Source of the DNA: an uncultured Bacteroidota bacterium
GTDB lineage: Bacteria; Bacteroidota; Bacteroidia; Bacteroidales; P3
DNA: 46,691 bases
Assembly (NCBI GenBank): GCA_902784865.1
Contig: CACZWL010000015.1
Location: 1 to 46,691, forward strand
Reading direction: 5' to 3'
The notes under the pieces are model-generated. The model ran no database searches. It was not told where the DNA came from and worked only from the letters and a program-made list of their open reading frames with translations. A program made the translations under genes and the position numbers. Positions 387 to 35,900 of the stretch are shown here, piece after piece. The stretch's first letter is position 1. Every line of letters begins with the position of its first letter.

Positions 387-416
387 TTTGTAGCTTGTTT
401 TTTTTTACTACTTTTG
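387..416 (+). promoter_or_regulatory. Promoter of the 4-hydroxybutyrate operon
   Basis: TTTG at 387-390, an 18-nt spacer, then TACTTTTG (TAnnTTTG) at 409-416 match the Bacteroidota primary sigma-factor consensus. The start point is expected near 423. This gives a leader of about 450 nt that contains the cobalamin riboswitch. Confidence 0.65.
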
Positions 417-465: not shown

Positions 466-645
466 ACAGCAGCGAGGTGCGTCCTGCCTGCACGTCAGGC
501 AGGACGATAATAGGGAACCATGTGAGATTCATGGACTGTCGCGCAACTGTGAACTCCCGCCACCAGCCTAGGGCTCAACGTCATTGGGAACCCGCTTCCC
601 GAGAAGGCACCCACGGCGAAGGGAGAAGTCAGGAGACCTGCCCGC
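466..645 (+). promoter_or_regulatory. Cobalamin (B12) riboswitch aptamer
   Basis: The conserved blocks appear in the correct order. AGCGAGGTGC is at 471-480, followed by a perfect 10-bp hairpin arm (481-490 with 496-505). TAATAGGGAA is around 508-517, a CCAT/ATGG stem encloses GTGAGATT, and GCGCAACTGT is at 541-550. A GAGAAGGC arm is at 601-608, and the B12 box AGTCAGGAGACCTGCC ends at 642. These are the signatures of the adenosylcobalamin aptamer family. Binding normally lowers expression of the downstream gene. Here that gene is abfD, whose enzyme does not use B12. Confidence 0.9.
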
Positions 646-871
646 TTGCTTGCAGACAAATCTTTCGCGTCAAAAGAGTTTGTCCACGCACGGAACCCCA
701 GTGGAAGGCACCAAACAGCCACCACTGAACTCCCCAGACTAGCCATGTCTTTCCCCTCCCTAATGCGTTGGAACTCAACGGCGAGAAACCGAAACCTGTT
801 CCGACGCACAACAAAAGAAGAAATAAAATTGATAAATTTATATAAACATTAAATTAAAAACTCAAAAAAGT
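646..871 (+). promoter_or_regulatory. Riboswitch expression platform / long leader
   Basis: These 226 nt separate the aptamer from the first start codon. Two stems can be drawn: GACAAA/TTTGTC with inner pairing (655-684), and a 10-bp stem GCGTTGGAAC / GTTCCGACGC (765-774 with 798-807, one wobble pair). Neither is followed by a U-tract, so a simple intrinsic terminator is not evident. Control may act on translation or through a mechanism I cannot infer. The last 65 nt are A-rich, as is usual before Bacteroidota start codons. Confidence 0.45.
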
Positions 872-2317
872 ATGATGACAAAAGAACAATACATTGAAAG
901 CCTTCGCAAGATGAAGCTTAACGTGTGGTACATGGGCGAGAAAATCGAGAACCCCGTGGACCACCCGATGATCCGTCCCTCGCTGAACTCGGTGGCCATG
1001 ACCTACGAGCTGGCCGAGCAGCCTGAGTATCAAGAAGTGATGACCGCCGTGAGCAACCTCACCGGCAAGCGCATCAACCGCTTCTGCCACCTCCACCAGA
1101 GCACCGAGGACCTCATCAACAAAGTGAAAATGCAGCGCCTCTGCGGACAGAAGACGGCCGCCTGCTTCCAGCGTTGCGTGGGCATGGATGCTTTCAACGC
1201 CATCTACAGCACCACCTACGAAATCGACCAGAAGCACGGCACAGAGTACCACAAGCGCTTCACGGAATACCTTAAATACGTACAGGACAACGACCTGACC
1301 ATCGACGGCGCCATGACCGACCCGAAGGGCGACCGCAGCCAGGGCCCCAGCGGCCAGAAGGACCCCGACCTCTACCTCCACATCGTCGAAGTGCGCCCCG
1401 ACGGCATCGTGGTCCGCGGCGCCAAGGCGCACCAGACCGGCGCCGTCAACAGCCACGAGCACCTCATCATGCCCACCGTGGCCATGAAGGAGGAGGACAA
1501 AGACTATGCCGTCAGCTTCGCCATCGCCAGCGACGCCCCCGGCATCACCATGATCTACGGCCGCCAGAGCTGCGACACCCGTAAGATGGAGCAATACCAC
1601 GACATCGACCTCGGCAACCGCCAGTTCGGCGGCCACGAGGCGCTGGTCATCTTCGACGACGTCTTCATCCCCAACGAGCGCGTCTTCATGTGCAAAGAGT
1701 ACGACTTCGCAGGCATGATGGTCGAACGCTTCGCCGGCTACCACCGCCAGAGCTACGGCGGCTGCAAGGTGGGCGTGGGCGACGTGCTCATCGGCGCCGC
1801 CGCACTGGCCGCCGACTTCAACGGTGTGCCCAAAGCCAGCCACATCAAGGACAAGCTCATCGAGATGATGCACCTCAACGAGACGCTCTACTCCTGCGGC
1901 ATCGCCTGCTCGTGCGAAGGCAAGCAGATGGCTGCCGGCAACTACCAGATCGACCTGCTGCTGGCCAACGTCTGCAAGCAGAACGTCACCCGCCTGCCCT
2001 ACGAAATCGCCCGCCTGGCCGAAGACATCGCCGGTGGCCTCATGGTCACCATGCCCAGCGAAGCCGACCTGCGCAACAAGGAAATCGGCCACTACGTGGA
2101 GAAATACCTCGCCGGCGCCCCCGGCGTCAGCACCGAGGACCGCATGCGCATCCTGCGCCTGATCGAGAACCTCACCCTCGGCACCGCCGCCGTCGGCTAC
2201 CGCACCGAAAGCATGCACGGCGCCGGCTCGCCCCAGGCCCAGCGCGTCATGATCGCCCGCCAAGGCGACCTCGAGAGCAAGAAGAAACTGGCCAAGAACA
2301 TTGCGAATATCAAATAG
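872..2317 (+). CDS. abfD: 4-hydroxybutyryl-CoA dehydratase / vinylacetyl-CoA delta-isomerase
   Basis: The 481-residue product converts 4-hydroxybutyryl-CoA to crotonyl-CoA in the cytoplasm by a radical mechanism using FAD and a [4Fe-4S] cluster. The cluster ligands known from the Clostridium aminobutyricum enzyme are all in place: Cys98, Cys102, His291 and Cys298, the last two in the motif YHRQSYGGC. Length and whole-protein character match the family. Two ATG codons stand side by side at 872 and 875; the first is used here and either could be the true start. It is the first gene after the cobalamin riboswitch and is separated by only 3 nt from the CoA-transferase gene, so the two are cotranscribed. 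The enzyme is oxygen-sensitive, which suits an anaerobe. G+C is high, especially at third codon positions. Confidence 0.95.
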   Translation: MMTKEQYIESLRKMKLNVWYMGEKIENPVDHPMIRPSLNSVAMTYELAEQPEYQEVMTAVSNLTGKRINRFCHLHQSTEDLINKVKMQRLCGQKTAACFQRCVGMDAFNAIYSTTYEIDQKHGTEYHKRFTEYLKYVQDNDLTIDGAMTDPKGDRSQGPSGQKDPDLYLHIVEVRPDGIVVRGAKAHQTGAVNSHEHLIMPTVAMKEEDKDYAVSFAIASDAPGITMIYGRQSCDTRKMEQYHDIDLGNRQFGGHEALVIFDDVFIPNERVFMCKEYDFAGMMVERFAGYHRQSYGGCKVGVGDVLIGAAALAADFNGVPKASHIKDKLIEMMHLNETLYSCGIACSCEGKQMAAGNYQIDLLLANVCKQNVTRLPYEIARLAEDIAGGLMVTMPSEADLRNKEIGHYVEKYLAGAPGVSTEDRMRILRLIENLTLGTAAVGYRTESMHGAGSPQAQRVMIARQGDLESKKKLAKNIANIK

Positions 2318-2320
2318 ACA

Positions 2321-3616
2321 ATGGACTGGAGAACCGAATATAAAAACCGAATGACCACGGCCGAAAAGGCCATCAAGAGCATCAAGGACGGCGACACGGT
2401 CGTCATGTCCGAGTGCGCCGGGGTGCCCCGCACCCTGGTCAAAACCCTGGCCGAGCACCACGCCGACTACCGGGGCGTGAGCATCTACCACATGCTCACC
2501 CTGGGCGAGGGCGAGTGCTTCGCGCCTGAATGCAGCGAAAACTTTTGTCATCTTACCAACTTCCTTGGGGCCAACTCCAGACAACACGTCTGGAGTGGCC
2601 ATGGGGAGTTCTTCCCGGCCTACTTCAAGGACATCCCCGGGATGCTCGGCAAAGAGATAAGCTGCGACGTGGCCATCGTCACCGTCACCGAACCCGACGC
2701 CTTCGGCTACTGCTCCGTGGGCCTCTCGTGCGACTACGCCATGGCCGCCATCAAAAAGGCCCGCATCGTCATCGCCGAGATGAACGACCAGTTGCCCTAC
2801 ACCGCCGGCGGCACCCTGGTGCACGTCAGCGAACTGACTCACATCGTCCCCGTCAACTACCAGCCACCCACCCTGCAGCCCGCCAAGATAGGCGACGTGG
2901 AAATGGCCATCGGCCGCCACTGCGCCTCGCTCATCAACGACGGCGACACCCTGCAGCTCGGCATCGGCGCCATCCCCGACGCTGTGCTGGCTCAGCTGGG
3001 CGACAAGCGCGACCTCGGCATCCACACCGAGATGTTCTCCGACGGCGTGGTAGACCTGGTGGAACGCGGCGTCATCAACGGCGAAAAGAAAACCCTCCAC
3101 AAGGGCAAGCTCGTCGCCACCTTCCTCATGGGCACGCAGAAGCTCTACGACTTCGTGGACCACAACCCCATGGTGGCACTCTACGGCGTGGACTACGTCA
3201 ACGACCCCACCGTCATAGCCAAGAACGACAACATGGTGGCCATCAACTCGTGCATCGAGGTAGACCTCATGGGCCAGGTGGCCAGCGAGAGCATGGGCGC
3301 CAAGCAGTTCAGCGGCACCGGCGGCCAGGTGGACTACGTGCGCGGAGCCTCGATGAGCAAGGGCGGCCGCAGCATCATGGCCATGCCCTCGACGGCTGCC
3401 AAAGGCACGGTGAGCCGCATCGTGGCCACCCTGAAACCCGGCACCGCCGTCACCACCCCGCGCAACGACGTCGACTACGTCGTCACCGAATACGGCATCG
3501 CACACCTGCGCGGCCTCTCGCTGCCCAAACGCGCCGAGGCCCTCATCGCCATCGCTCACCCCGACTTCCGACAGCAGCTGCGCGAAGATTACGAAAAAGC
3601 ATACAAAAACATCTAA
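2321..3616 (+). CDS. abfT: 4-hydroxybutyrate CoA-transferase (acetyl-CoA hydrolase/transferase family)
   Basis: The 431-residue product moves CoA from acetyl-CoA or butyryl-CoA to 4-hydroxybutyrate, supplying the substrate of AbfD. Family features seen include the glycine-rich LGIGAIP (about 213-219) and TEMFSDG with Glu237, which aligns with the catalytic Glu238 of the C. aminobutyricum transferase. A C-terminal VTEYGIAHLRG motif is typical of the family. The gene follows abfD by 3 nt and precedes the dehydrogenase gene by 5 nt, so it lies in one tight operon. Substrate choice between 4-hydroxybutyrate and other short acids cannot be settled from sequence alone. The gene neighbourhood strongly favours 4-hydroxybutyrate. 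Confidence 0.93.
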   Translation: MDWRTEYKNRMTTAEKAIKSIKDGDTVVMSECAGVPRTLVKTLAEHHADYRGVSIYHMLTLGEGECFAPECSENFCHLTNFLGANSRQHVWSGHGEFFPAYFKDIPGMLGKEISCDVAIVTVTEPDAFGYCSVGLSCDYAMAAIKKARIVIAEMNDQLPYTAGGTLVHVSELTHIVPVNYQPPTLQPAKIGDVEMAIGRHCASLINDGDTLQLGIGAIPDAVLAQLGDKRDLGIHTEMFSDGVVDLVERGVINGEKKTLHKGKLVATFLMGTQKLYDFVDHNPMVALYGVDYVNDPTVIAKNDNMVAINSCIEVDLMGQVASESMGAKQFSGTGGQVDYVRGASMSKGGRSIMAMPSTAAKGTVSRIVATLKPGTAVTTPRNDVDYVVTEYGIAHLRGLSLPKRAEALIAIAHPDFRQQLREDYEKAYKNI

Positions 3617-3621
3617 CAGCC

Positions 3622-4737
3622 ATGTTCACAGTTAAAAGCAACATACACCAATTCGACACCTTTGCGCAGTTTGCCAAAGAGTTCCAACTGGGCAAAGGCG
3701 ACCTGGTCATCACACAGAGCTTCATCCACGAGCCCTACATCAAGCCGCTGGGCCTGGAGTGCCACTTCGTGATGCAGGAGCAATACGGCGCCGGCGAGCC
3801 GAGCGACGAGATGATTCAGCGCATGATGGACGACCTGCGCACGGCGCACTACGACCGCGTGGTGGCCGTGGGCGGCGGCACGGTGATCGACATCTCGAAG
3901 CTCTTCGCCCTGGGGTGCCTCGACAACGTCACCGACGCCTTCGAGCGCAAGATACCCATCGTCAAGCAGAAGCGCCTCGTCATCGTGCCCACCACCTGCG
4001 GCACCGGCAGCGAGGTGACCAACATCAGCATCGCCGAGCTGAAGCAGAAGCACACCAAACTGGGCCTGGCCGACAACGCCATCCTGGCCGACGACGCTGT
4101 GCTCGTGCCCGAGCTGCTGAAGACCCTCCCCTTCAAGCCCTACGCCTTCAGCGCCATCGACGCCCTGATCCACGCCACCGAGAGCTACCTCTCGCCCAAG
4201 GCCACGCCCTTCTCGCGCATGTTCTCCGAGGAGGCCATCCGCCTCATCCTGCCCATTTTTGCGGGCATCGCCAGCGAAGGTCCCGACTACCGCCTAGCCC
4301 ACCTGGAGGCCATGCTCCGCGCCAGCACCTACGCCGGCATCGCCTTCGGAAACGCAGGCTGCGCGGCCGTCCACGCACTCTCCTATCCCCTCGGCGGCAA
4401 CTACCACGTGCCTCACGGCGAAAGCAACTACCAGTTCTTCACCCACATCCTCAACCTCTACGCACGGCGCAACCCCACGGGCGACATCACGAAGCTCAAC
4501 GCCCTCTACGCCAGCCTCCTCGGCTGCAGCGACGAGCCGAAGGCCCTCTACGAAGAGGTGGACCGCGTCCTCTCCTCGATGGTGGAGAAAAAGCACCTGC
4601 GCGAGTACGGCATGCAGGAGGCTGAGTGCGAGCTGTTTGCCGACAGCGTGCTCGAGAAACAGCAGCGCCTGCTGGGCAACAACTACGTGCCGCTGAGCCG
4701 CGAGGAAATCGTCGAAGTATACCGGCAACTGTACTGA
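3622..4737 (+). CDS. 4hbD: NAD-dependent 4-hydroxybutyrate dehydrogenase (iron-type alcohol dehydrogenase)
   Basis: The 371-residue product reduces succinate semialdehyde to 4-hydroxybutyrate. The nucleotide-binding GGGTVID is at about residues 84-90. The metal ligands of group III alcohol dehydrogenases are all present: Asp180, His184 (DALIH), His251 (VHALSYPLGG) and His265 (HVPHGE), with the usual 14-residue spacing between the last two histidines. The frame is open much further upstream, inside abfT, but the start at 3622 lies 5 nt after the abfT stop and gives exactly the expected family length. It is cotranscribed with abfD and abfT. A 140-nt gap with an 11-bp triplicated repeat separates it from sucD. 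Confidence 0.94.
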   Translation: MFTVKSNIHQFDTFAQFAKEFQLGKGDLVITQSFIHEPYIKPLGLECHFVMQEQYGAGEPSDEMIQRMMDDLRTAHYDRVVAVGGGTVIDISKLFALGCLDNVTDAFERKIPIVKQKRLVIVPTTCGTGSEVTNISIAELKQKHTKLGLADNAILADDAVLVPELLKTLPFKPYAFSAIDALIHATESYLSPKATPFSRMFSEEAIRLILPIFAGIASEGPDYRLAHLEAMLRASTYAGIAFGNAGCAAVHALSYPLGGNYHVPHGESNYQFFTHILNLYARRNPTGDITKLNALYASLLGCSDEPKALYEEVDRVLSSMVEKKHLREYGMQEAECELFADSVLEKQQRLLGNNYVPLSREEIVEVYRQLY

Positions 4738-4773
4738 CACCTGGTAGGTGTCTGGTAGGTATCTGGTAGGTGA
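4736..4773 (+). repeat. Three tandem 11-bp repeats with overlapping hairpin
   Basis: CTGGTAGGTGT, CTGGTAGGTAT and CTGGTAGGTGA stand head to tail at 4741-4773. The first copy also forms the perfect stem GACACCT/AGGTGTC (4736-4752) around a GGT loop, overlapping the 4hbD stop. It may be a protein-binding array or an RNA processing site; no function is known to me. The rest of the gap (to 4877) is AT-rich, with only a weak promoter-like TATTTTCG at 4803-4810. Confidence 0.7.
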
Positions 4774-4877
4774 ATACTTCGACTCTTTCGCATATTTTCC
4801 CCTATTTTCGCACCACTTTGAAACAAAAGCCACAAATATAAAGAGAAACAGAAAATTAACATAAAAACAACAACACA

Positions 4878-6236
4878 ATGACCGAGATAGAACAAATGAT
4901 AGCCAAGGCCCGCCAGGCGCAGGCCACCTATGTGAACCACTTCGACCAGGACGACGTCGACATGGCGGTGAAAATCACCACCCGCACCATCTACGACCAC
5001 GCCGAAGAGCTGGCCAAGCTGGCCGTCGAGGAGACCCAGATGGGCGTCTACGAAGACAAAGTGGCCAAGAACCGCAACAAGTCGAAGGGCGTCTACTGGG
5101 ACCTCAAGGGCAAGAAGTCGATGGGCATCCTGAGCATCGACGAGCGCACGGGCCTCATCGAGATAGCCAAGCCCATCGGCGCCGTCGCCGGCGTCACCCC
5201 CATGACCAACCCCATCGTCACCCCGATGTCGAAGATAGCCTTCGCCCTGAAGAGCCGCAACGCCATCATCATCGCCCCCCACCCCAAGGCCAAGAAGTGC
5301 TCCTCGCTGGCAGTGAAGTACATCGTCGAGGCGCTGAAGGCCATCGACGTGCCCGAAGGCATGGTGCAGATCATCGAAGAGCCGTCGCTCGACAAGACGC
5401 AGGAGCTCATGGCCCGCTGCGACGTGACGGTGGCCACGGGCGGCATGCCCATGGTGAAGAGTGCCTACAGCAGCGGCAAGCCCAGCTACGGCGTCGGCGC
5501 CGGCAACGTGCAGGTCATCGTCGACCGCAACATCGACTACGACCTGGCCACGCAGAAAATCATCACCGGCCGCTCATTCGACAACGGCATCATCTGCTCC
5601 GGCGAGCAGAGCTGCATCTACCCGCAGGAGTGCCGCGAGGCCGTGATAGAGGGCTTCAAGAAAGCCAAAGCCTACGTCTGCACGAAAGAGGAGCGCGAGA
5701 AGGTCGTCGCCGCCATCTTCGAGGACGGCCACACGGCCCGCGACGTCGTCGGACAGTCGGCCGCCAAGATTGCCGCCAAGGCCGGCATCACCATCCCCGA
5801 AGGCACCAAGGTCATCGTCCTCGAGAGCAACGGCGGCTTCGGCATCGACGACCCCATCAGCAAAGAGAAGATGTGCCCCGTGCTGGCCATGTTCCCCTAC
5901 CAGTACTTCGACCAGGCCATCGACATCGCCCAGACCAACCTCAACAACGAGGGCAACGGCCACACCGCCGGTCTGCACTCCAACAGCCAGGCCAACATCA
6001 TCAAGGCCGGCTCGGAGCTCAGCGTGTCGCGTCTGATCGTCAACGCTCCCTGCGCCACCACCGCCGGCGGCAGCATCCAGAACGGATTGCCCGTCACCAA
6101 CACCCTCGGCTGCGGCTCGTGGGGCAACAACTCCATCAGCGAGAACTTCACCTTCAAGCACCTGCTCAACATCACCCGCGTCGCACCACTGCAGACCCGC
6201 ATGCAGGTTCCCACCGACGAGGAGATCTGGAAGTAA
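4878..6236 (+). CDS. sucD: CoA-acylating succinate-semialdehyde dehydrogenase
   Basis: The 452-residue product reduces succinyl-CoA to succinate semialdehyde with release of CoA. It is the entry step of the pathway whose later enzymes are encoded just upstream. It belongs to the aldehyde dehydrogenase superfamily. The catalytic cysteine is Cys240 in NGIICSGEQS, close to the position known in the P. gingivalis and Clostridium enzymes, and VGAGNVQVIVD precedes it. No N-terminal extension is present. The 140-nt upstream gap holds a triplicated repeat, so sucD could be read through from 4hbD, started separately, or both. A strong terminator follows at 6295. Together the four genes make succinyl-CoA to crotonyl-CoA complete; the reduction to butyryl-CoA must be encoded elsewhere. 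Confidence 0.94.
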   Translation: MTEIEQMIAKARQAQATYVNHFDQDDVDMAVKITTRTIYDHAEELAKLAVEETQMGVYEDKVAKNRNKSKGVYWDLKGKKSMGILSIDERTGLIEIAKPIGAVAGVTPMTNPIVTPMSKIAFALKSRNAIIIAPHPKAKKCSSLAVKYIVEALKAIDVPEGMVQIIEEPSLDKTQELMARCDVTVATGGMPMVKSAYSSGKPSYGVGAGNVQVIVDRNIDYDLATQKIITGRSFDNGIICSGEQSCIYPQECREAVIEGFKKAKAYVCTKEEREKVVAAIFEDGHTARDVVGQSAAKIAAKAGITIPEGTKVIVLESNGGFGIDDPISKEKMCPVLAMFPYQYFDQAIDIAQTNLNNEGNGHTAGLHSNSQANIIKAGSELSVSRLIVNAPCATTAGGSIQNGLPVTNTLGCGSWGNNSISENFTFKHLLNITRVAPLQTRMQVPTDEEIWK

Positions 6237-6294
6237 CCACCCCTCAGAAACCCTCTGATTTTTTTGACATAAGTCTGCTGTAAGCGACAGAAAC

Positions 6295-6325
6295 GAAGAC
6301 ACCGCCTACTGAGGGCGGTGTCTTC
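6295..6325. terminator. Bidirectional terminator between sucD and secA
   Basis: Perfect 12-bp stem GAAGACACCGCC (6295-6306) / GGCGGTGTCTTC (6314-6325) with a 7-nt loop, placed between the convergent ends of sucD and secA. Runs of T on either side are short. Confidence 0.7.
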
Positions 6326-6342
6326 ATTATGCGGACCGATGG

Positions 6343-9657
<3,315 letters not shown>

Positions 9658-20920: not shown

Positions 20921-23900
20921 ATGAACGACGGCGACAACAAGCGAAAGTTATATGATGCTCTCAGTAAGGATTACGACATGGGAACCTTTGAACAGTTCTC
21001 GACCGATGTCGAGGATGAGGGCAAGCGAAAGAAACTGTATGAGGCTATCAAGGGCGAGTACGACCTACCCGACTTTGATGGCTTCACTCGTCAGCTGGTT
21101 GGAGAGCGTAGTCAGGTGCAGCAGCCAGCCGCTACTCCTGCCCAGCAGGAAGAGCACAGTCCCTACCAGATGGCACAGGGCAACACACCGACCTACAACT
21201 ATGGCGGACAGATGCCCCCGGCACCGAGACCTTCCACACCCAGGAGCAAAGGTAATGCCCAGCCGACACAGACGGCAGCGGCACAACCCCTGGGGCCGGA
21301 GAAGTTCGCAAAGCAGATGCAGTTCGAGCAGCGGATGCGGCAACGTGTTCCCTCTCCCGAAGCCATGATGCAGGACTTCTCCCAGCGTATGGAGAATATC
21401 CGCAAGGGCAACCAGCCGTTTGGATCTGCGAGCGAGCAACGGTACAATCCAGAGACCGGGAAGATGGAAACAGTGTACTTCACCAAGAGCGGTGAGGAAG
21501 TTTCCACTCCTATGGAACAGCAGCGTATCAACCGTGAAGTCAGCGACCCTGTCGGAAGTGAGTTGCGTGAAGCATACGCAGAGCGCGACAGACTCAACAA
21601 AGAGATTGACCGCAGGACGCGAGAGGTTGACAAGGCCAATGAGCCGTCGTTTGCCCAGATGCTTGCAGCGAGTGAAGGCGGTGGATATAACCCAGTCTTT
21701 GCTGCCCGTAGTGAAGACCCTGAGCTTTCCATGTTGTGGACTGCCAAGCGCAAGAATGAGGCACGTATCAAGACGTTGGAGCGTGAGGGTAAGAACGAGG
21801 GTTTCTTCCGCACCCTCGGCAAAACATTGTTCTCGTTAGACACTTGGGACTTCGGACTGTTCGACCTCATAGATGCTGGCAACACGATGGCCTATGGCGA
21901 TAAGAAGCTCAAAGGCTCCCTCGGTGAAGCACAGGAGTCCATGATGGAGAATACCTATAGAGCTAACGTCGCACAGCAGCAGTATGGCGAGAATGACACC
22001 TTCTGGCAGCGAGCAGGTGAGATAACCGGCAATGCTATACCCTTTGTGGCAGAATTTGCCCTCACTGGTGGTTATAGCGGACTGACACAGGCAGGTACCA
22101 AAGCAGGTAGTAAGATGGCTGCAAAGTATGCTACTGGAAAGGTTGGGCAGTGGGTCATTAAGAACACTGGCACCCTTGTAGGTGATATGGCTGCAGGTTT
22201 TGCTATGGCCAACACCACAGGCGGCATGAAGACCGCAGCCGACATCATCAACAGACACCAGGGCCAGCTCGTCAAGGATGAGGATGGCGACTATGTGTTT
22301 GATGGAGGCAAGAGCTGGGGACGTTCCATCTATGAGGGTGAAATGGCCAACACACTCGAATACTACACCGAGAAACTGGGTGTACACCTCGACGGAGCAG
22401 GAAAGGTAGTCGGAGGATGGCTTGGCAAGGGCATGGAGCGCATGGGCGCAGGTCGTGTGTCGGAACTGTTCAACCGCATCACAGGCAGCGAGTGGGCGAA
22501 GATTACAGGTCAGGTACTGCGCAAAGGCGGCGTACAGGACTATCCGAGTGAGGTTGTTGAGGAAGAGGCCAACATCTTGCTCAACTCTCTCCTTGTGGGT
22601 GATAACAAGTTCAGCGACTTTGTGGACGGCAAGACACAGGCCGACATCTGGGGAGGCATGATGCTTTCCATTGGCTTCATGCAGAGTCCCGGCATGGTTG
22701 GTGGCGGTTACCAGACGGCACAATACTATCGCTACAAGCACAAGACGGACATGAGCGACCGTGTAGCCTTTACCCGTCTCACTCCCGAACGCTGGGAGCC
22801 GTGGCGCGAGCGTATCGACAACACCACCAACGAGGATATGCGTGATGTTATCAGCGACATCATAGGCAGTCAGGAGTTGCAGGATGAGGAGAAGAAAGCC
22901 GCCATCAACTATGTGGGCAACCTCATGCAGATGCGAGGCTACAACCTTCGCACCACTGCCGATGCCAAAGACAAAATCAACGGTACGGAAGCCGTTGATG
23001 AAGCCGTCGATGCAGACAATGAGTCATACCAGAACGGCTATGAGGCCGACGAGCAGAGCCGCAGGGACATCGCTATTGAATACTCCATGAACCCCGATGA
23101 TGAGGTAAGAGCCGCAGCCGTCGATGGTGTTCGTCAGCGTATCGAAGATGATGCGGACATGGAAGTTGAGGGATGGCGAGAGGAAGGGCGCAAGATGATG
23201 CATAGCGACGGCTCCATACGTCCGGCGGTCCTGAAAGTGAAGAATGAGAACGGAGATGACACCGAGGTGTACATCGTAGAGGGCAACGTGCAGATGATGG
23301 CCGACGGTACGATGGTGGATCCAGAGACCAGCGACCGCAGCGTTGTCATCTATGACCCTGCCACAGGTGAGCGCAAGATTATAGACCCGACGAGCGACAT
23401 GGGTATTCTCTCCATTGGAGAGGCCACCAGTGCCGATGACTTCGAGTATGAGATACAGCGCAGACGTGATGAGTATGTGCAGCGGATGCTCGACGAGGCC
23501 CAAGGCACTGTGCGTGTCGAGTTGGGTCAGCCGCTGACGATGCCCGACGGCAGAGAAGGTACAGTTATGGCCATCAGTCCCGACGGCGAGAGCTTCACCG
23601 TGGTAGCCAATGACGGCAGCGGAGAAGAGGTGCGCATGGAGCGTTCCGACCTCCAGCAGATAGCCGATGCAGCTGCATTGGCAGACTATCAGGCACGACA
23701 CCAAGAGGACGAAGCCACAGCCGAACAGCCCACCGAGAAAGAGACCGATGAGCCGACGGCAGTTGCTCCTGGTACTGTAGAAGGTGCTCCGACGGAGTTC
23801 CTGCCCGACATGGATATTACCATTCTCGATGATGCCGGCAACGAGCAGCCCGCCACCGTCATGGGCATTGTCCGCTATGAGCGTGGGAAGTTCGTTCCCG

Positions 23901-26900
23901 ATGAGACTGGCAACATCGTGGAGTATGTGGTGGACGGACAGGTGAAGCATGAGAATACCGCCATGCTTGCCGAGAAGGTCGTGAGCTATGTAGATGCCAC
24001 ACTTGCAGCCCAAGAGACCGCAGCAGAGCAGCCCGCAGCCGTTAAGCAGCCCACTGTAGAGACTCCAACTGCAGAGGTTGAGACTCCAGCCACTGAACCC
24101 GCCGGAGAAACGACAGGCACTGTGGCAGAGCAGCCGACTGTGGAACCCATGCCAATGCGTGAGGATGGTGAGGCCGATTTCCTTGCCACCACTCCCGAGC
24201 GTGGCCACCAGTTCATATATAACGAGGCAGGATTGAGCCGAGAGGAGGCCGGGCAGTTTGTCAAGGCCAACCTCGAGACTGCCACCAAGGCCCTCGACAA
24301 GGCCAAGAAGGAAGCCCCGAAGATGGGTACCAGCCTCGTCAAGTACAAACAGCAGCAAGCCGAGCACCAGGCGAAAGTCGATGCAGCACAACAGGCCGTG
24401 GACTACTGGCAGGGAGTGAAATCCACCCAGAGTGCCATTGTTTCCGCTGAAATGGCAGAGCAAGCCGAGCGCGACAGAGCCGCCCACGAAGCTGCGGTGC
24501 TGGCAGAGCAGAAGCGGCTGGCAGAGGAGCTTGCCAAGCAGCAGGAGCAGGCCGAGCGAGGAGCCAACGCCGTGCATCCTGCCATTCGTGAGAAGTGGGA
24601 TGGTGCACCCAAGGTCGAAGGGGCAGAGAATGAGATTACCCTTGCCAACGGCGAGACGTTGAATGGTCGGTATATGCTGGTGGAGAGTGGAGCGGCCACG
24701 CCGAGCCACAATGCCACGAGCGGGTTTGCCCGCAGTGAGGGCTTCCCTGTTGACGAGAACGGGCAGACGGTGAACGACCGCGACTATGAGCGTGACCAGC
24801 AGGCCCAGCAGATAACGAGGGATATGGCAGACCAATACGACAGCAGAGCCATACAGAACGTGCCGGTGGTGAGCAGAGACGGCGTAGTGTTGAGCGGAAA
24901 CGGCAGGACTATGGCCGGTGAACTGGCGGCGCAGAACGGCACCGACGGAGCCTATATAGAGCATCTGCGGAAGTATCCGCAGCAGTTCGGCTTCACGCCT
25001 GAGCAGGTGGAGGGGATGCAGCATCCGAGAGTGGTGTTTGTTCCCGACGAGGCGATGCCGTATACCACGGAGACCTTTGCGAAGTTCAACCAGCAGGATA
25101 TGAAGAGCCAGAGCCGGACTGAGCAGAGTGTGAAGATGGGCAAGACGGTGGATGATGCCACCTTCGGGCGCATCGTCAGGAGCATCAACGCCTTCGACAC
25201 GCTGGGCGACTTCTACAACGACCCGAAGGCTGCACCCGCCGCCATAGGCGAGTTGCACAAGGCTGGAGCCATCAACCAGATGCAGGTGGCCGAGATGATG
25301 GACGGCGAGAAGGTGAGCGGGCAGGGCCGTCAGATGCTGGAGAATTTGCTTATCGGAAAATCCTTCGAGGGCAATCCTGATGCTGTGCGACAGCTGGCGG
25401 AGTTTCCGGCTATGCGACAGAGTGTGGTGAGTGCGCTGGCCGAGATAGCCAACAACATACACCTTGGCGAAGACTACTCACTGGAGAGCGAGATGGCGCA
25501 GGCCATCAATTTGGCATACCAGGCGCGGAAGAGTGGCGGCATCGGAGCCGGCGAGAAGGTGAGCGGATTTGCGAGACAGCAGAGCCTTTTCCCCTTCGAC
25601 GAGGGCGAGACGGTGGCCGACTATACCAACGCCACGGTGCTGATGCTTGCCGACTGCATGAACGACGGCAGGGTGAGCCAGATGAAGAAAGTGCTGGCCA
25701 TCTACAACGACCACGCTGCGCAGAGTGCTGCGGGTCAGTACGACATCTTCAGCGGTGGTGTGAAGATCAAAGAAGAGATAATCAACGACGTATTAAACAT
25801 ACTGAACAATGGAACAGAAACAGAACAACAGACAGCCCTCACAGGGGCAGCCGAGCGACGCAAAGAAGCAGCGGGCGTTGGGCAAGATGGCGTTGCTGGC
25901 AACAGCGATGCAGGAAGCGGAGCAGAATTGGCCAACAGCAGAGGACTTGTTGAGCAAGAAGCTGGGTTGAGCGAGGATGAGGCAGACGACCTTATCCTTG
26001 CTTCTGCAGCCAGAGCGAAGATAATGCCACAATTGCCTGTTCCGCTCACATCAGTAGCTTGGCAGATGGAGTTTGGCAACGGAGTGTTGCAGACACCAAT
26101 GGGCGAGGTAAAACTTGGAGAGAACCAGTTTGCCAAGATGATAACGAAAGGTCGCGAGAAAGAAGCCGGAATGATTAAGCCGACATTGACAGACCCTGAT
26201 TTCATCATTGAAGAAGCCAGCCAAGCCGGTGATGGCAACACAGAGAGGTCGAGCTCTTACCTATTTGTAAAAGCCTTTATCGGCAACGATGGAAAGAAGC
26301 GATACTTCTTCAAGTCAGTAACAGTAAAGAAAGATGGGTTAGAGATAAACATCAGTAACCATATTGACAGTGCGAAGCGATTGAGGGAAGCTTTAAAGAA
26401 AGGGAAGTTGCTATACCGATTTGACGGTGGCGCACAGACCGAGCAGACCCCTGCATCTGCTTCTGTGACAACCTCCCCCGTTGACTTGCAGGGAGTTTCT
26501 GAGCGCAAAGATACGAACAATTCTGAAACTGAGCAAGAAAAAGTTGTAAGTGCCATAAAATCAGCCGAGGCGGAGGTGGACACCAACCCCACAAAAGGCC
26601 AGAAAAAGGCCGGGAACTACAAAATGGGACACGTCAAGGTTGACGGTTACGACATCACGATAGAGAACCCCAAAGGCAGTGTGCGCCGTGGTACCGACCC
26701 CAGCGGCAAGGCGTGGGAGCAGGAGATGCACAACACCTACGGCTACATACGCGGTACCGAGGGCGTTGACGGCGACCATATCGACGTGTTCCTTTCGGAT
26801 GATCCTACGAGCGGTGATGTGTTCGTTGTGGACCAGGTAACCCCCAAGACGGGAGAATTTGACGAGCATAAGGTCATGTATGGCTTCCCCGACATCGAGA

Positions 26901-29900
26901 GTGCCAAGGCCGCCTACCTCTCCAACTATGAGGAGGGCTGGCAGGGACTCGGCGCCATTACGCCGGTCAGCAAAGAGGAGTTCAAGAAATGGATAGAGAG
27001 CAGCCACCGTAAGACCAAACCCTTCGCCGAGTATGCGAGTGTGAAGACCAATGGCGACACACAGCTTGGTGAGGGCAGTCCGTATGCCCGGTACCATAGA
27101 GAGGCCGAAGCCGAGATACAGCAGCTGCTGGATGCGGCCCCCGACCGCACCGGTCCTGTGGCAAGTCCTGAACGTACCGAAGCCATCCAGAAGATTGCCG
27201 ACATGCTGAACGAGGCCGACAGTGCCATAGAAGACCTGGAGTTGAACGACGACCAGCTGCAGCGTTTCCAAGCCCGCCGTGATGCCGCCGAGAAGTGGCT
27301 GGAGGAGAATGTCTATGGCGAGGGAGTGGCATTGTCTGTCGAAGACCTTAAAGAGGCCAGCGACGAGGCCGAAGGTGCAGCACCTGCAGAGCAGCCACAA
27401 GCAGAGGCGACCGAAGAGACCGCAGCGCAACCCAAGGCAGAGACCAAGAAGAGCAAGTGGGTTGATGATGAGGATGCGGAGCGTTTCGAGGAACTGCGCC
27501 GCCGAATGAGAGAGTTGAACGGACACCTTAACATGGGTGTGAACCCCGAGCAGCTTGCTATCGGCGTTGAAATGATCTACTATGTCATCAAGCACGGCGC
27601 CCACAAGTTTGCCGACTATGCCAAGCAGATGATAGATGCCCTTGGCGAGTGGGTACGTCCCTATCTCAAATCGTTCTACAACGGAGCACGAGACCTGCCG
27701 GAAATGGAGGTCATAGGAATATCTGCAGAACTGACCCCATACGACGAGGTGAAGACATTTGACGTGATGAACTTCGACAAGGAAGGCCCGAAAGACATCA
27801 TCGCCCTTGCCGACGAGGTGGTGAAAGAGCAAGATGTGGAGAAGCAGAAAGAAGAGGCAGAGAAGAAGCTGATAGACAATAGAAAGGAACGTTGGCAAAA
27901 GAAGAAAAAGGCAGAGAAACCTACAACAGGTGATAAAGATACAACAAAAAAGCCGAAGAATGGGAAAAAAGATGTATCTTTGCAGTCGCAAATGAGCCTA
28001 TTCGACAGCGATGGTACGGAAACCGAACCCAAGGGTACGGAATCCAGACCCAATAACACAGAGTCCGAACAACCCACAGTCGAAGAGGAGCAGGAAGCAG
28101 AGAGTACATTGAAGTATAGCGGGGAGCAGATGAGGAAGATGTCCGCAGCTGTTACCACGGACTTACTGATAGGACTGCAAGATGGTGTTAAGCCGTATAA
28201 GAGTATTGTCGATTTGCGACGGAGGGCCAAGAGTCTTGGGCTTGAAGTGGACGATGAAGGCAGAGACGATGTTGCGTTGCAAGAAATGGTTGAGGATGGA
28301 CTTGTTAGAGCCGCCCGAACCATGGTTGAAAGTGGCAAATATGGTGGCAGCAAGTCGAGAGAAGCGTATGAAGCCATCTGCAAGTTGTACGACATGCAGC
28401 CCACCATCAGCCGCAGGAGTGCCAACCGAGTGAAGATGCAGCAGTATTCCACTCCATTGCCAATGGCATTCATGGCAGACAGTTTCGCATGGAAGCCCGG
28501 CATGAAGAAGATACTGGAGCCGACGGCAGGAAACGGCATGTTGGTGTTCGCGGTACCGGCAAAGAGCGTGATAGCAAACGAGCTTGACGAGACACGACTG
28601 GCAAACCTCAAAGAGCAAGGTTTCCTTGGTGTTATACACAACGATGCGCTGACGCATGATTTCAGGGAACTTGGGAGATATGATGCCGTGATAGCAAACC
28701 CACCATTTGGTAGTGCAGCAGCTAAGGAGTATGACGGCAAGAGTATTGCCGGACTTGACGAGCAGATAACGCTGAATGCCCTTGCAGCGATGAAAGACGA
28801 TGGCAGAGCCGCCATCATCATCGGAGGCAACATGGAGTATGCCAAGAATGGTGCTGTTAGCAACAACAAGGCATTCTGGACGTACCTCTACGACCACTAT
28901 AACGTAAAGGGTGTAGTGGATATGGATGGCAAACTGTATGCAAAGCAGGGGACAACCTACCCCACCCGCATGATACTTATCGATGGACGCAGGAGCGAAG
29001 ATGAGCGTGCGCAGAGTACTGTGTACCCACCGAGGAAGTTCGAGGCTGTGCGCATGGCAGAGACCTTCGAGGACCTGTATGACATAATTAATGAAATAAA
29101 CCAATCAAAAAATAGAACCAATGGCAACGAAGTATTACGCACCAGCAGCAAGCCTATCGTGTCTAACACTGACAACGAGACCGGGCGCACTAACGAGAGC
29201 GATACTGGTAGAGAATCTAATGAGAATGTTGGCAATGGAAGCCAACGAGAGCCACGACCGACTAACAGCGGAAGAGGCGAACGCGGAGATAGACAAACTG
29301 AACCGCAGCGAGTACCAGAGACTCCGCGAGAAAGCGACAGTGGAGCTGGACAGCCAGGAAATGCAGGAGTATCTGCAACGCAAACGGATAATGTTGGGCG
29401 ATCCGCTGGTAGCAGTGAACGAAGCGGAAGTGAACGTACAGGAGATACTGAACGAGTTCACGATGACGGAGTTCGAGCAGCAGGAAATGCCGCTGGTGGA
29501 GTACGAGTAGAAGAGAGTGCTACACCTGAAACCGCAGCCCCACAGCAGAAAGAGCAACCCAAACAGAGGACAGTAGAGGATGAGAAGCTCCCCTATCGTC
29601 CGCACAACACAGCCTTTAGTTTAGAGAGTGTAGCCCCAGCCGCCATGGTAGAGGCTATGGATAACACCCTTTCGGAAATAGAGAGGGTGCATGGCATGAG
29701 CATAGACGAGTTTGTTACCAGCGAGCTTGGTTATGACAGTATCGATGACATGCACCATGCTCTTGCCGCCGAGCAGGTTGATAGTGTGGCAATGGCCATA
29801 CACAACATGTGGGGAGGCAATGCTATGATTATCGGTGACCAGACTGGAGTAGGCAAAGGGCGACAGATGGCCGCATTGATACGCTGGGCCTGCAAGCAAG

Positions 29901-32900
29901 GCAAGAAACCCATCTTCATTACGCAGAAAGCAGACCTGTTCAGCGACATCTATCGCGACTTGGTAGATGTAGGAAGTGGCGATTTGCGTCCGTTCATCTT
30001 CAACAGCGACGGAGCGATGGTTGATGCCAACGGCCACGTTGTTCACAAGCCATTGAGTAGTGCAGCACAGGCGAAAGTATTTGCTGGTGAAACATTACCT
30101 GACGATTATGACTTTGCCGTCCTCACTTACTCGCAGGTGAATACTGGTGATGAGGTTAGCAGAGAGTTTGCGAAACAGCACAAAGACAAAGACCAGCGAG
30201 GCTCGAAGCAAAGCAAGGCCGTGAAGAATGGCAAGGCAACACCCAAGGCCACCTTCCTGCGCAAGATAGCACAGGACAACTACCTTTTCCTTGATGAGAG
30301 CCACACGGCAGCTGGTGACAGCAATGTTGGAGCTTATATCCGCAGCATCATAGGCACAAAGGCAGGAGCTGTGATAGGCAATGCCGGCGGAGCAGTGGAA
30401 GGTGGAGTGAAAGGAGTTACTTTCGCGAGTGCCACCTTTGCCAAGCGACCCGACACCATGCCTATGTACGCCATGCGTACAGCCATGAGTGAGGCCAACG
30501 TGAAGCCAGAAGAGCTTATCAAGATTATTGAGAAAGGTGGTGTTACGTTGCAGGAAATCATGAGCCGTGCCTTGACTGATAGCGGTCAAATGGTACGCCG
30601 TGAGCGTGATATGAGCGACGTGCGTACTGATTGGGAGACAATCAGCGATCCTGCAACCGTCAAGAGAGCCAGAGAGAACTACGACCGCACCATTGCCGCA
30701 TTCAACGCCATTATCGACTTCCAAGATACGTATGTAAAACCGTTGATAGCCGCAAAGGATGCAGAATTGAGTCTCTATGCAGAGAGTGCTGGAGTAAAGA
30801 AAGGAACTGACAAGATGGGCGTTGAGAATGTACCATTTGCCAGCAAGACCTATAACTACACCAAGCAATTGATGCTCGCCTTGAAAATCGATGCCATTGC
30901 CGACCGGGTAGAGGCCGAGATAAAGGCGGGCAGACATCCTGTTATTGCACTGGAAAGCACGATGGAGGCAAGCATCAAAGACTATACCAACGGAGAGGTT
31001 ATTGATGAGCCGACTTTTTCCGCCAGTCTGTTGCGTGGCCTTGACACTGTGATGCAGTACACTGTGAAGGACGAGGACGGCAAAGAGACACACCACCATT
31101 ACAAGCCCAGCGACCTTGGGCGAGATGGTGAGACTGCCTACTATGCGTTGCAGAATGCTATCAGGGAGGCTACCAGCGACATATTCATCAGTCCTCTTGA
31201 TGCTATCATCGAGAAACTGCATGAAAAAGGATACAAGGTTGGTGAGTTGACAGGCAGAAACAACTATGTAGAACGTGATGCCGATGGACGTGTTGTTGTC
31301 CGCAGACGTACCGACAAGGATAAGAAGCGTATGCAGCGTGAGTTCAACAGTGGTGCATTGGATGTGCTGATACTTAACAAGAGCGCATCGACAGGAATCT
31401 CACTTCATGCCAGCAAGACTTTCAGCGACCAGCGACAGAGAACGATGATTATAGCCCAGCCATTGAGCGACATCAACGACTACATGCAGATGATTGGCCG
31501 CATCGACCGTACAGGCCAGATACACCGTGGCTACTATATCAACCTCGGACTTCCTGTGCCAGCCGAAAGCCGATTCCTGATGATGCTTTCCACCAAGCTG
31601 AAATCGCTGAACGCCAACACCACCACAAGCCAAGACAGCGAGGACAACAGTGTGGATGCCCCCGACCTGCTGAACAAATATGGCAGTCAGGTGGTTGTTG
31701 AGTACCTGCGTGACAATCCAAGTATCTATGAGAAGATGGGTGAACCCATCAGGAAAGGCATGGGAGAGAAAGTGTCTGCAAGCGAGTTGGATGAATACAA
31801 AGCTCCTGCCAGCGATGAAGTGGCCCGCAAGATAACAGGATATGTGGCATTACTTACCACACAAGAGCAGGAGGACTTCTATAACGACGTTGTGCGTCGT
31901 TATACCGACCTTATCAAATACCTCGACAGCACTGGTGCCAACGACTTGAAGATAACCGTCATGCCGTTGAAAGCAAAGACTCTTCGCAAGGGCGTATCGA
32001 GTAAGGGTAATAATCCCAATGGCAGCAATCCCTTTGCGCAGGATGCTTACGTTGAAGAGGTGGAAATGGACGTGTTAAGAAAGCCCATGAAAGCCGATGA
32101 GATACGTAGTGGTATGGAGCAACTGAATAAGCTGCATGGAACAGAGAAAGGCCATCTGCGTACCGCTAATGAAGAGAAAGTGCATGGTGAGCGAGTGTTG
32201 GAAATAATGGGAGTTGTGCAGCGTGATGAGGATGCGAGACTGCAAGCCGAAGAAGAGCGATATGAGGGAAGCAAAGCCCGACTCACCGAGAGTATCGGGA
32301 AGAAGCGTGATGCCCTTTCCAAGCAGAACCGCAGCGAGGAAGAGAAAGCCGATGCTTTGAAGAAATACGTTGACGAAGAGACTAAGAAGGTAGAAGAGAG
32401 ACATGAAGCCAACGTTAACAAGGCACGTTCCCTGACATACTTCATGCGTGAAGGATTGACCAACTACATAACCGGTAGAACATACTTTTTGCCGCAAGAC
32501 CTCACCGAAGAGGGAGGTCAGGCAGGAATGTTCAAAGTTCCTGCCATCTTCATGGGCTACAAGGTTAAGGATGATAAACCAACCCCCAGCACCAGCTTTG
32601 CCGTTTTTGCCACTTTGGATGGCCGTCGTAGAGTAGAGGTGAAATTCACCGACAACTATACCAACAAGACCATCGACTTCTTGACCAACAGCGACTATAA
32701 CGAGGCACAGCGCACCACGTTAGACAACTGGGACAGCAAGATACCCAGCGAGACCCGCAAGAAGGGTTACATAATGACTGGTAACATCCTACAGGCAGTA
32801 GCCGACACCAGTGATGAAATGGGTAACTACAAAGGACAACTTATCAGCTACACCGATGAGCAGGGCGAAATTCATGACGGTATCTTGATGCCCGACAGAT

Positions 32901-35900
32901 GGGAGCCGTCGATGCTAAAGACGAGCGGAGTACCTATCAATGCCAAGTTGGGAGAGATACTAAGAGGAAGTCATGTGTCGAGTACAGACGGCAAAATAAA
33001 TATAAGCAGTAATGGTAACGGCCATGCCACACTCTCTGTGCCAAAGACCAAGAAAGAGGGTGCAAAGTACTACGAAAACCCTGTCATCCTGCGAGCCATT
33101 GACTCCCTCGGCTTCTGGCAGAATAGAGGCGAGTTCCAAGCAGACATCACTGGAGAGTCCAATATCCGAAAGGTTGTTCAAGAGTTGTCCAGCATGGGTG
33201 TGAGGGTACGCGACGAGCAGGCCGACAATAATCTATTGAGCCGTGGTGTGAGTGACGAGGAGCGCATAGCCGAGCTTGAGAGTCAGCCGAAGATGAAGAT
33301 GTACCGCAGCATGGTACTTATCGACGGTAAACTGTACCCGCCAATGAGCAGCAAGGAAGCCGACGGAAAGGGTCTGCGTGAGCCGAGCGAGATAGGCAAG
33401 TGGGAAGAGAGCGAAGAGGCCCCGGAGAAAGCCGTGTTGCGTAATGGCAAGTGGGTATTCCCATTGAAGAAAGACAACGGCAAGAGCCTGTATGCCGCTT
33501 ACAATCCCTATATCCATACGTCTGCCACAATGCTCAACGACCAGTTCAGCGAGGCGCAGAACCGTGAAAACCTCGTCGTTGTGGAAATGGAAGTCCCCAT
33601 GAGCGAAATGACGAGTGGCTATCTGGCAGAGAAAGCCAAGGATAGTGTTGGAATGAAGCAGTGGAAGGCAGGTGTGATCCAGGGACAGTTGAACGGTTCT
33701 CGTGAGGTGATGTTGAGCCGTTGGGCTAAACCTATCCGTATCGTACCCACTGAGGAGGTTGCCGAGAACATTGCGAAGCAGATAGATGGTATAATCACTG
33801 TCATGCCGAGCAATGTGGTAACGCCGCAGGTGCGTGAGGCCATGGAGAAGTTGGGTGTTAAGTTCGTTGAGACCGACAACACCGGCAAGTTAAAAGAGGG
33901 TGCCAACAAAGGCCGCAGCTGGACCAGTGTGTACGGCAAAGGCAAGAGTGTCCAGAAGTTGATGCGAGAGGGTGAAATCGAGGCCGTTGAGTTGGAGCGT
34001 CCGAGTAAAGATGCCGATTGGCAGGAGCAGCTATGGTACACAATGCCAGAACGGTGGTTTGACATCCAGCGTGGCACTATGGCCTACGAGGACGGTGTGC
34101 GGATGAGCAGACTTCGTGGCTACAGCAAGAGACGTTACGATGCCATGCTGGAGAGAGCCGTGGAAAGCTTTAAGAAGCAGGTGATGCAGACAGCCGAGCG
34201 TATGAACATAGGCGACCGAGTGCATGTCGTGGCCACTGCCGACGAGATAACCGACGAGAAGCTGACCGATAAGCAGAAGAGCGACAAGGCTCTGTACAGT
34301 CCGACCAGCGATAAGATATATATCATCCTCGGCAATCACCGCAACATGGATGACGTGATGAAGAGCTTGCTGCATGAGAGCGTGGCTCACCACGGACTGC
34401 GCGAACTCTTCGGCGACCACTTTGACACCTTCCTTGACAACGTGTATGCAGGAAGCGAAGAGAGCATCCGTGTGAAGATAGCATCGATGGCCGCAAAGCA
34501 CGGCTGGAATGTGCGTACCGCCACGGAAGAATATCTGGCACAGATGGCCGAGACAATGGACTTCGAGAAGCCTGAAAACAACAGTTGGTGGAGCAAGGTC
34601 CAGACCTGGTTCTTTGACATGCTGCATAAGATTGGCTTCACGGTGAAGAATTGGCCCGGCACCATTACCGACAACGAACTTGCATACGTATTGTGGAGAA
34701 GTTACCAGAACATGGTGAACCCCGGACGTTACCGCAGCCCGATAGAGATTGCAGAAGATACTGTGATGCAAGACAAGTTGAGAGTGGGACAGTTTGAGAA
34801 AAACGCCGACCGAAATCGGTCATCGAAAAGAGAGGTGTTGAGAGCAGCCGAGGCGATAATAGATGATGCGTTGTTGGATGATGATGTTTATCTTGGCATG
34901 TGGCAGCGGTTGGAGGATGAAAGCGTTGAAATGGAAGAAGCGAATGCCATTCGTGAGTATATTAATCGAGCACTTGAAGGAACACTTGGACCCGGTTTCG
35001 ATGAGGCGTATGAAGATATGCTTGATGCCGTGGAGGAATACATAGCCGACAGAAATGCCGCAGCAGGACCCAGTGGACTATTGTCGCGTGATGGTGACTT
35101 CTCGCCGAGGGACAATGCCATTGCGAGAGACTACTATGAGCGGATGGTGTCGCAGAATGGCTACCAGGTGCAGGAGGCCATGCAGGACTCCATGCTTGGA
35201 CTGCGTAAGGCCATGCAAGCAATACTGGGTGCTGGAAAGGACTTCAAGATTGAAGAGGTCGCAGGAAATGAGAACGCCTACCTTGCCGAGAACCGTATGA
35301 GCAGCACCAATGCCGCCGAGCAGCACAACTACTTCCGTCAGTGGCTGGAGCCCCTATTGAAAGCCGTACACGAGATAGCCGGTAGCAAAGCCGCAGAGCG
35401 TGAGGCGTTGACCAACTACATGATGGCCAAGCACGGTTTGGAGCGTAACGAGAAGTTTGCCGAGAGAGACTTTGTAGCCTACCAGCAGCAGTATCCGACA
35501 GGCGGTAAGACGTTGGCCGATTTCCGCCAGAATGACTACGCCGGCCTTACCGCATTGACAGGAGAACAGGACGTGGTAGATGCCGAAGCAGTAGCCCGGC
35601 AGATGGTAGCCGACTATGAGGCACTGCACAATACCAGCGAATTGTGGGATGCCGTCAACACCGCCACGAAGGTAACGCTGGCCAGGATGTACAGAGGAGG
35701 GCTGATGAGCAAAGAGAGCTACGAGCATACAAGGGACATGTTCGACTACTACATTCCTTTGCGCGGTTTTGACGAGACCACCAGCGACGAGGTGTATGGC
35801 TACCTCACCAGCCGACAAGGGCCGTTGGGCAGCAGCATACTGAAACATGCCGAAGGACGTAGGAGCAAAGCCGATGACCCGATAGCCACCATAGCCATGA

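Follow-up and report, generated by a model that had tools for sequence, protein, structure and literature searches.

The window, by which we mean the whole stretch of 46,691 nucleotides (nt) analyzed here, contains near its beginning an operon for the conversion of succinate to crotonyl-CoA, and the leader of its first gene, abfD, carries a cobalamin (vitamin B12) riboswitch aptamer (Table 1). The window begins at the first base of contig C15, and the gene upstream of the leader is therefore unseen. The genome it comes from, that of a gut-type Bacteroidales bacterium, has 2.40 Mb in 43 contigs and is 98% complete. The closest named relatives by AbfD are uncultured Bacteroidales, at 94% (isolate RUG134) and 92% (a metagenome-assembled genome from roe-deer rumen).

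A preliminary description had reported a clear B12 aptamer in this leader. The Rfam covariance model RF00174 confirmed it with a score far above the gathering cut-off, and the match spans the full model (1-189/189). It is the sole Rfam match at the gathering threshold in the window, and a search of the whole genome returned it again at 82.9 bits. The start previously given for the feature, 466, does fall in the aptamer, which begins 8 nt earlier and ends 212 nt from the start of abfD.

Table 1. Features of the abfD leader and operon.
Feature	Position	Strand	Basis or remarks
Probable Bacteroidota-type promoter: TTTG (387-390), 18 nt, TACTTTTG (409-416)	387..416	+	sequence
Cobalamin riboswitch aptamer RF00174	458..659	+	cmscan 82.9 bits, gathering cut-off 31.5, E 4.9e-19
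B12 box AGTCAGGAGACCTGC	627-641	+	within RF00174 aptamer
Hairpin with TTTCGC (663-668) on loop side, candidate L13 partner of loop L5	655..684	+	folding, complementarity
Putative expression platform: C-rich stretch, 11-pair hairpin, A/T-rich lead-in to abfD	685..871	+	folding, terminator scans, composition
abfD, 4-hydroxybutyryl-CoA dehydratase / vinylacetyl-CoA isomerase, 481 aa (amino acids)	872..2317	+	PF11794 + PF03241
abfT, 4-hydroxybutyrate CoA-transferase, 431 aa	2321..3616	+	PF02550 + PF13336; 3 nt past abfD
4hbD, Fe-type 4-hydroxybutyrate dehydrogenase, 371 aa	3622..4737	+	PF25137 + PF00465
sucD, CoA-acylating succinate-semialdehyde dehydrogenase, 452 aa	4878..6236	+	PF00171

AbfD, AbfT, 4HbD and SucD together make up the full succinate-to-crotonyl-CoA (4-hydroxybutyrate) set. 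Because NCBIfam recognized the four enzymes only as kin, under its curated cut-offs, their names rest on solved relatives, gene order and pathway. The best solved relative of AbfD is 1u8v ('Gamma-aminobutyrate metabolism dehydratase/isomerase', E 6.9e-254, full length), that of AbfT is 3eh7 ('4-hydroxybutyrate CoA-transferase', E 1.2e-167), that of 4HbD is 30sm ('Cvir-Hbd2', E 2.3e-113) and that of SucD is 8cei ('Succinate-semialdehyde dehydrogenase (acetylating)', E 4.4e-138). The operon had been described as SucD, Fe-type 4HbD, CoA-transferase and AbfD; all four identifications stood, though that listing is the pathway order and abfD comes first on the DNA. Pfam found no B12-binding domain in any of the four (E up to 1e-5), in agreement with the earlier claim that none of them uses cobalamin. 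The gene order is identical in those Bacteroidales loci that hold all four genes. Since a 140-nt gap precedes sucD, its control by the abfD leader is only likely. For the steps from crotonyl-CoA onward, the window genome has two acyl-CoA dehydrogenase matches and EtfAB. Many relatives have a gap of ~300-550 nt between abfD and abfT (e.g., L027:8441-8750), which is nearly absent in the window and may hold a small gene.

AbfD is rare in wider samples, occurring in 3/395 genomes of the phylum, 10/393 of the order and 22/190 of the family. A survey of abfD leaders had been suggested as a check on the aptamer. Ours took in the best 80 of 171 AbfD loci, 48 from Bacteroidales (L018-L065, with L063 assigned from its position in the AbfD tree) and 32 from elsewhere. 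Among the 48, the aptamer is present in 25, 24 found directly and L027 scored through L009, which is identical to it in AbfD and comes from a genome with RF00174 matches at the same places; RF00174 was not found in the other 23, four of which have cut leaders. Loci with a leader cut by a contig end or an incomplete gene were set aside before counting (L034, L049, L058, L061, L012, L014 and L180), as was L093 outside the order; the partial leaders of L034 and L049, 371 and 407 nt long, show no aptamer. L009 and L010, with the AbfD sequences of L027 and L048, were not counted twice, and from L160-L180 only L163, L172, L173, L175 and L176 were counted as new. On these rules there are 29 carriers (the 25, L015-L017 and the window) and 26 readable non-carriers (19 of L018-L065, L011, L013 and the five new loci).

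RF00174 thus stands upstream of abfD in 29/55 readable Bacteroidales leaders. Outside the order, none of 31 readable leaders has the aptamer according to a 26-aptamer profile and a B12-box scan (13 of 15 or better; Rfam was not run on these). The record titles of the carriers name rumen Bacteroidales, Tannerella, Porphyromonas, Rikenellaceae and Sanguibacteroides. The abfD riboswitch is real, and it is conserved in many relatives rather than being peculiar to the window. L018, the nearest relative at 94% AbfD identity, lacks an aptamer at abfD. We considered a simple deletion of the aptamer in such relatives. The leaders of the window, L018, L022 and L023 align poorly and the relatives' upstream genes differ, so that a loss in place finds no support.

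The 29 aptamers that precede abfD fall in three places of a 72-aptamer tree, and the nrdD and CoA-transferase aptamers described below nest near that of the window. The supported branches require the abfD label to change at least three times, and these changes may be gains as well as losses. This suggests repeated recruitment of the aptamer to abfD, although it is not proof given several long branches, the window's among them. A single origin is unsupported by the tree, and the same long branches warn against over-reading it.

The window genome has five RF00174 riboswitches, that of abfD included. One precedes a BtuB-like receptor, after which comes a YncE-like protein that has solved relatives in the YncE family, and one a large secreted protein of 2151 aa of the type IX secretion system (T9SS) type with a secretion-tail domain. 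Another stands before the class III nrdD, in a genome that also has the B12-dependent nrdJ. The last precedes a second CoA-transferase, 58% identical to AbfT and again with 3eh7 as its best solved relative, which may complete or supply the same butyrate route. This 4-hydroxybutyrate-type transferase lies at L098:7114-8749 (C1 of the same genome), with further cases at L123 and L136, and a pyridoxal-kinase-like gene follows it in the window genome and in G782. In the sister genome, G782, four riboswitches are present (btuB, T9SS-type protein, nrdD and second CoA-transferase); compared with the window genome, it is missing only that of abfD. When 40 riboswitch neighborhoods sampled from relatives were searched with tblastn, 9 were BtuB-like, 6 NrdD-like (one weak), 8 T9SS-type and 2 CoA-transferase, and the remainder were read by eye or left. 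Riboswitches precede large T9SS-type secreted proteins in several Bacteroidales (L099:7500-14286, L106, L112, L113, L121, L124 and others), and these proteins are candidates for surface B12 capture. In the genome of L037, an uncultured Alistipes, a cobalamin riboswitch (L159) precedes biotin-carboxylase and carboxyltransferase genes, by eye an acyl-CoA (propionyl-CoA) carboxylase, and a B12 link to the propionate branch is possible there.

A promoter-like pair, matched to what we take to be the Bacteroidota consensus, ends at 416, 41 nt 5' of the aptamer; a sigma-70 promoter scan of the leader found no match. Of the 26 carrier leaders examined, 12 have TAnnTTTG upstream of the aptamer and 10 have it at the outermost 5' edge of the aptamer match (counts without a shuffled control); in the other four it was not found within 100 nt, and one of these (L032) is cut by a contig end. 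On the 3' side, GTGAGA and TTTCGC could form the L5-L13 contact through six complementary pairs. TTTCGC or TCTCGC occurs 20-21 nt 3' of the B12 box in 12/12 leaders of the window's aptamer type and was not found in the remaining 14/14. The motif CTTTCGCG also follows the nrdD and second CoA-transferase aptamers of the window genome.

In the putative expression platform, the 685-765 stretch is rich in C (0.41) and poor in G (0.17), the 11-pair hairpin occupies 764-808, and 655-880 folds more stably than shuffled sequences (z -3.46). Terminator scans of the window leader found no intrinsic terminator between aptamer and abfD, and a model of shut-off by such a terminator is unsupported. Masking of the translation start is likewise unsupported, the last 60 nt before abfD being A/T-rich and mostly unpaired in the centroid fold. 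Because the stretch is C-rich and G-poor and has no terminator, shut-off might occur by premature termination that is perhaps Rho-dependent. The B12 box lies within ~390 nt of abfD in 24/26 carrier leaders, the exceptions being L035 and L064. In L035 a MarC-family membrane protein gene (L035:5998-7001) lies between aptamer and abfD.

The preliminary description had named methylmalonyl-CoA mutase, on the way to propionate, as the B12-dependent counterpart of this operon, and both of its subunits are indeed present in the window genome (mutB with its B12-binding domain, and an intact mutA). We looked for the mutase (PF01642) and the epimerase (TIGR03081) in 58 Bacteroidales genomes, copies included. 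The mutase was matched in 49/58 and the epimerase in 46. Eight genomes lack both, seven of them with readable leaders (L013, L022, L023, L026, L030, L033 and L062), and none of the seven carries the abfD aptamer. Put the other way, one or the other match is present in 29/29 carriers, and neither in 7/26 non-carriers; the epimerase was sought in 21 of these 26, and the other five have the mutase. In this scoring L021 counts by its epimerase only and L028 by its epimerase and a partial mutase match. L022 and L023 come from genomes given as 97% complete, and L062 is an isolate (Porphyromonas circumdentaria); the absences are less sure in G485 (L013), which is 74% complete, and in G797 (L033), which has 1.1 Mb.

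Fisher tests of carrier status against the branch, all of which ignore shared descent, gave p = 0.0012 for 50 leaders, 0.003 for 55, and 0.04 when the 50 were collapsed to 28 clusters at 95% AbfD identity; the mutase alone gave p = 0.007 for the 50 (table 28/1/14/7). Non-carriers L018 (G782, again as G935) and L163 (G948) have a mutA interrupted by a frame change at different places (loci L116 and L181, respectively), which may be decay of the mutase or assembly error. An intact mutA is present in the window genome as well as in the genomes of carrier L025 (G946) and non-carrier L019 (G897). Scoring the two interruptions as losses gave p = 0.0005, and we do not rest the conclusion on it.

The best supported reading of these observations is a choice between propionate and butyrate set by B12. 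We consider it probable that the leader is a cobalamin-sensing off-switch over the abfD operon, and that B12 represses the diversion of succinyl-CoA into butyrate formation; we infer that the aptamer binds its ligand, that the sign is off, how shut-off occurs and that the flux changes. With enough adenosylcobalamin, the aptamer would fold with its L5-L13 contact, abfD-abfT-4hbD (and probably sucD) would be turned down, and succinyl-CoA would pass through the B12-dependent mutase towards propionate. At low B12 the switch would open, and the B12-free route (succinyl-CoA to succinate semialdehyde, 4-hydroxybutyrate, 4-hydroxybutyryl-CoA, crotonyl-CoA and butyrate) would take over as the electron sink. 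We lean, by a narrower measure, toward a fuller account in which a vitamin-sensing riboswitch that picks the end product (propionate with B12, butyrate without) was recruited to abfD two or three times, was lost with the B12-dependent branch, and was joined here by a second CoA-transferase under a B12 riboswitch of its own. Propionate formation in rumen Bacteroidales is known to be enabled by B12 supply (PMC11575231). If butyrate-capable members of the order also turn to butyrate under B12 scarcity, the balance of propionate and butyrate would be set by cobalt or B12 supply and corrinoid competition through gene control as well as through cofactor supply. It would also widen the search under B12 riboswitches from isozymes to competing pathways, the question becoming which B12 enzyme shares a substrate.

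Several observations weigh against a B12-set choice of end product. The mutase is present in 19/26 non-carriers, including 10 readable loci of genus g378, so the propionate branch does not require the switch. On the AbfD tree there are three independent pairs on supported branches (five on all branches); of the three, one to three agree with the link, depending on how they are paired, and none oppose it, which cannot reach significance. A phylogeny-aware test therefore has too few independent pairs, and the association loses significance when shared descent is taken into account. TIGR03081 has no match in the window genome or in carriers L020, L032 and L036; the propionate route of the window genome may be incomplete, or the epimerase may lie in a gap or be too unlike the model. 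Outside Bacteroidales, 20/32 AbfD genomes have a PF01642 protein, yet no readable leader there has the aptamer by box or profile, and AbfD carriers in Firmicutes and other groups are not usable as support. The mutase in non-carriers also fits a real B12 off-switch whose purpose is not the propionate fork, the operon being part, on other grounds, of a general low-B12 regulon, and so do the riboswitches before btuB, nrdD, the T9SS-type protein and the second CoA-transferase. Five of the genomes without mutase and epimerase speak against that explanation: G786, G787, G790, G794 and G797 keep eight other cobalamin riboswitches, before nrdD (2), BtuB plus YncE-like proteins (3) and T9SS-type or YncE-like proteins (3), and have none at abfD. 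B12 sensing as such is therefore not lost in them, and we regard the general-regulon explanation as unlikely. In the remaining two, G485 and G826, a search with stricter filters found no RF00174.

The remaining points against a B12-set choice concern the leader itself. The aptamer of the window sits on a long branch and deviates from the consensus, with GUCAUUG in place of GCCACUG (580-586) and several P1 pairs that are non-standard in the model's register, and its function is for these reasons possibly reduced. A terminator scan of the 26 carrier leaders gave a match in 11, with shuffle rates of 0 to 0.57, and terminators are convincing only in L021 and L025, where a long hairpin and T-run lie ~50 nt before abfD. 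The long branch and the deviations, together with the lack of a terminator in the window and of an aptamer in L018, would suit an aptamer that is present by inheritance or operon mobility and has decayed or become uncoupled from abfD. We think this doubtful, and somewhat more so than the general regulon, since AGGGAA, CGCAACUGU, the B12 box and the L13 motif are all kept, the GUCAUUG variant is shared with L021 and L025, a promoter-like site lies 5' of the aptamer, and the B12 box is close to abfD in 24 of the 26 carrier leaders. Control of the opposite sign, with B12 raising abfD expression directly or indirectly (e.g., via an antisense arrangement), seems very improbable. The sign is not readable from the window sequence, and PMC11575231, in the part available, cites Listeria genes that are maximally expressed only with cobalamin; the same part states that most cobalamin riboswitches repress, and the btuB and nrdD riboswitches of the window genome fit repression.

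Repression of a B12-free alternative has known precedents. The available text of PMC9600662 reports that a riboswitch is common upstream of metE where metE and metH are both present, and that Bacillus subtilis, with metE and no metH, has no such riboswitch; the metE/metH logic was tested in B. subtilis. The same rule, a B12 riboswitch over the B12-free alternative and none where the B12-dependent counterpart is lacking, is seen for abfD and the mutase. MetE and MetH, however, are two enzymes with the same product, whereas the abfD case involves unlike pathways that leave one intermediate for different end products. The nrdD/nrdJ pair of the window genome resembles abfD in its riboswitch and in the motif after the aptamer, and differs in being isozymes of one reaction. 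By analogy, the operon may carry the rule of metE/metH and nrdD/nrdJ over to a branch point that leads to two end products.

The preliminary description knew of no report of this arrangement, and there it was mistaken. PMC7160235 (2020), a metatranscriptome survey, mentions in one sentence of its accessible text a cobalamin riboswitch upstream of 4-hydroxybutyryl-CoA dehydratase in Tannerella, a genus represented among our loci by L048, L055 and L056. The arrangement is the same, but in that text the gene is taken for one of adenosylcobalamin biosynthesis, with neither fork logic nor a connection to the mutase. The consulted portion of PMC9403272 lists the AbfD route for Porphyromonas and Tannerella, and the word 'riboswitch' does not appear in its main text. 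According to the available part of PMC11575231, Xylanibacter ruminicola, a rumen relative, needs B12 for propionate formation, and many of its most changed genes are near riboswitches; unlike the window genome, it has four riboswitches, none near propionate-pathway genes, and is reported not to make butyrate. The arrangement is thus already in print for Tannerella. Full-text searches of open papers, most of which were judged by their listed entries, brought up no proposal of the succinyl-CoA fork logic, a scope with most subscription papers and preprints outside it.

Some minor features of the window lie outside the leader and operon. A perfect 11-pair inverted repeat (CCCCGAAAGTT/AACTTTCGGGG) at 58-87, near the contig end, is followed by TTTT on the - strand. 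Downstream of sucD, secA lies on the opposite strand. A scan of 6200-6400 found no operon-end terminator after sucD, and it did not accept the inverted repeat GACACCGCC/GGCGGTGTC that lies between the two genes at 6298-6322. Farther along, an open frame of 5712 codons runs from 20921 to 38059 on the + strand.

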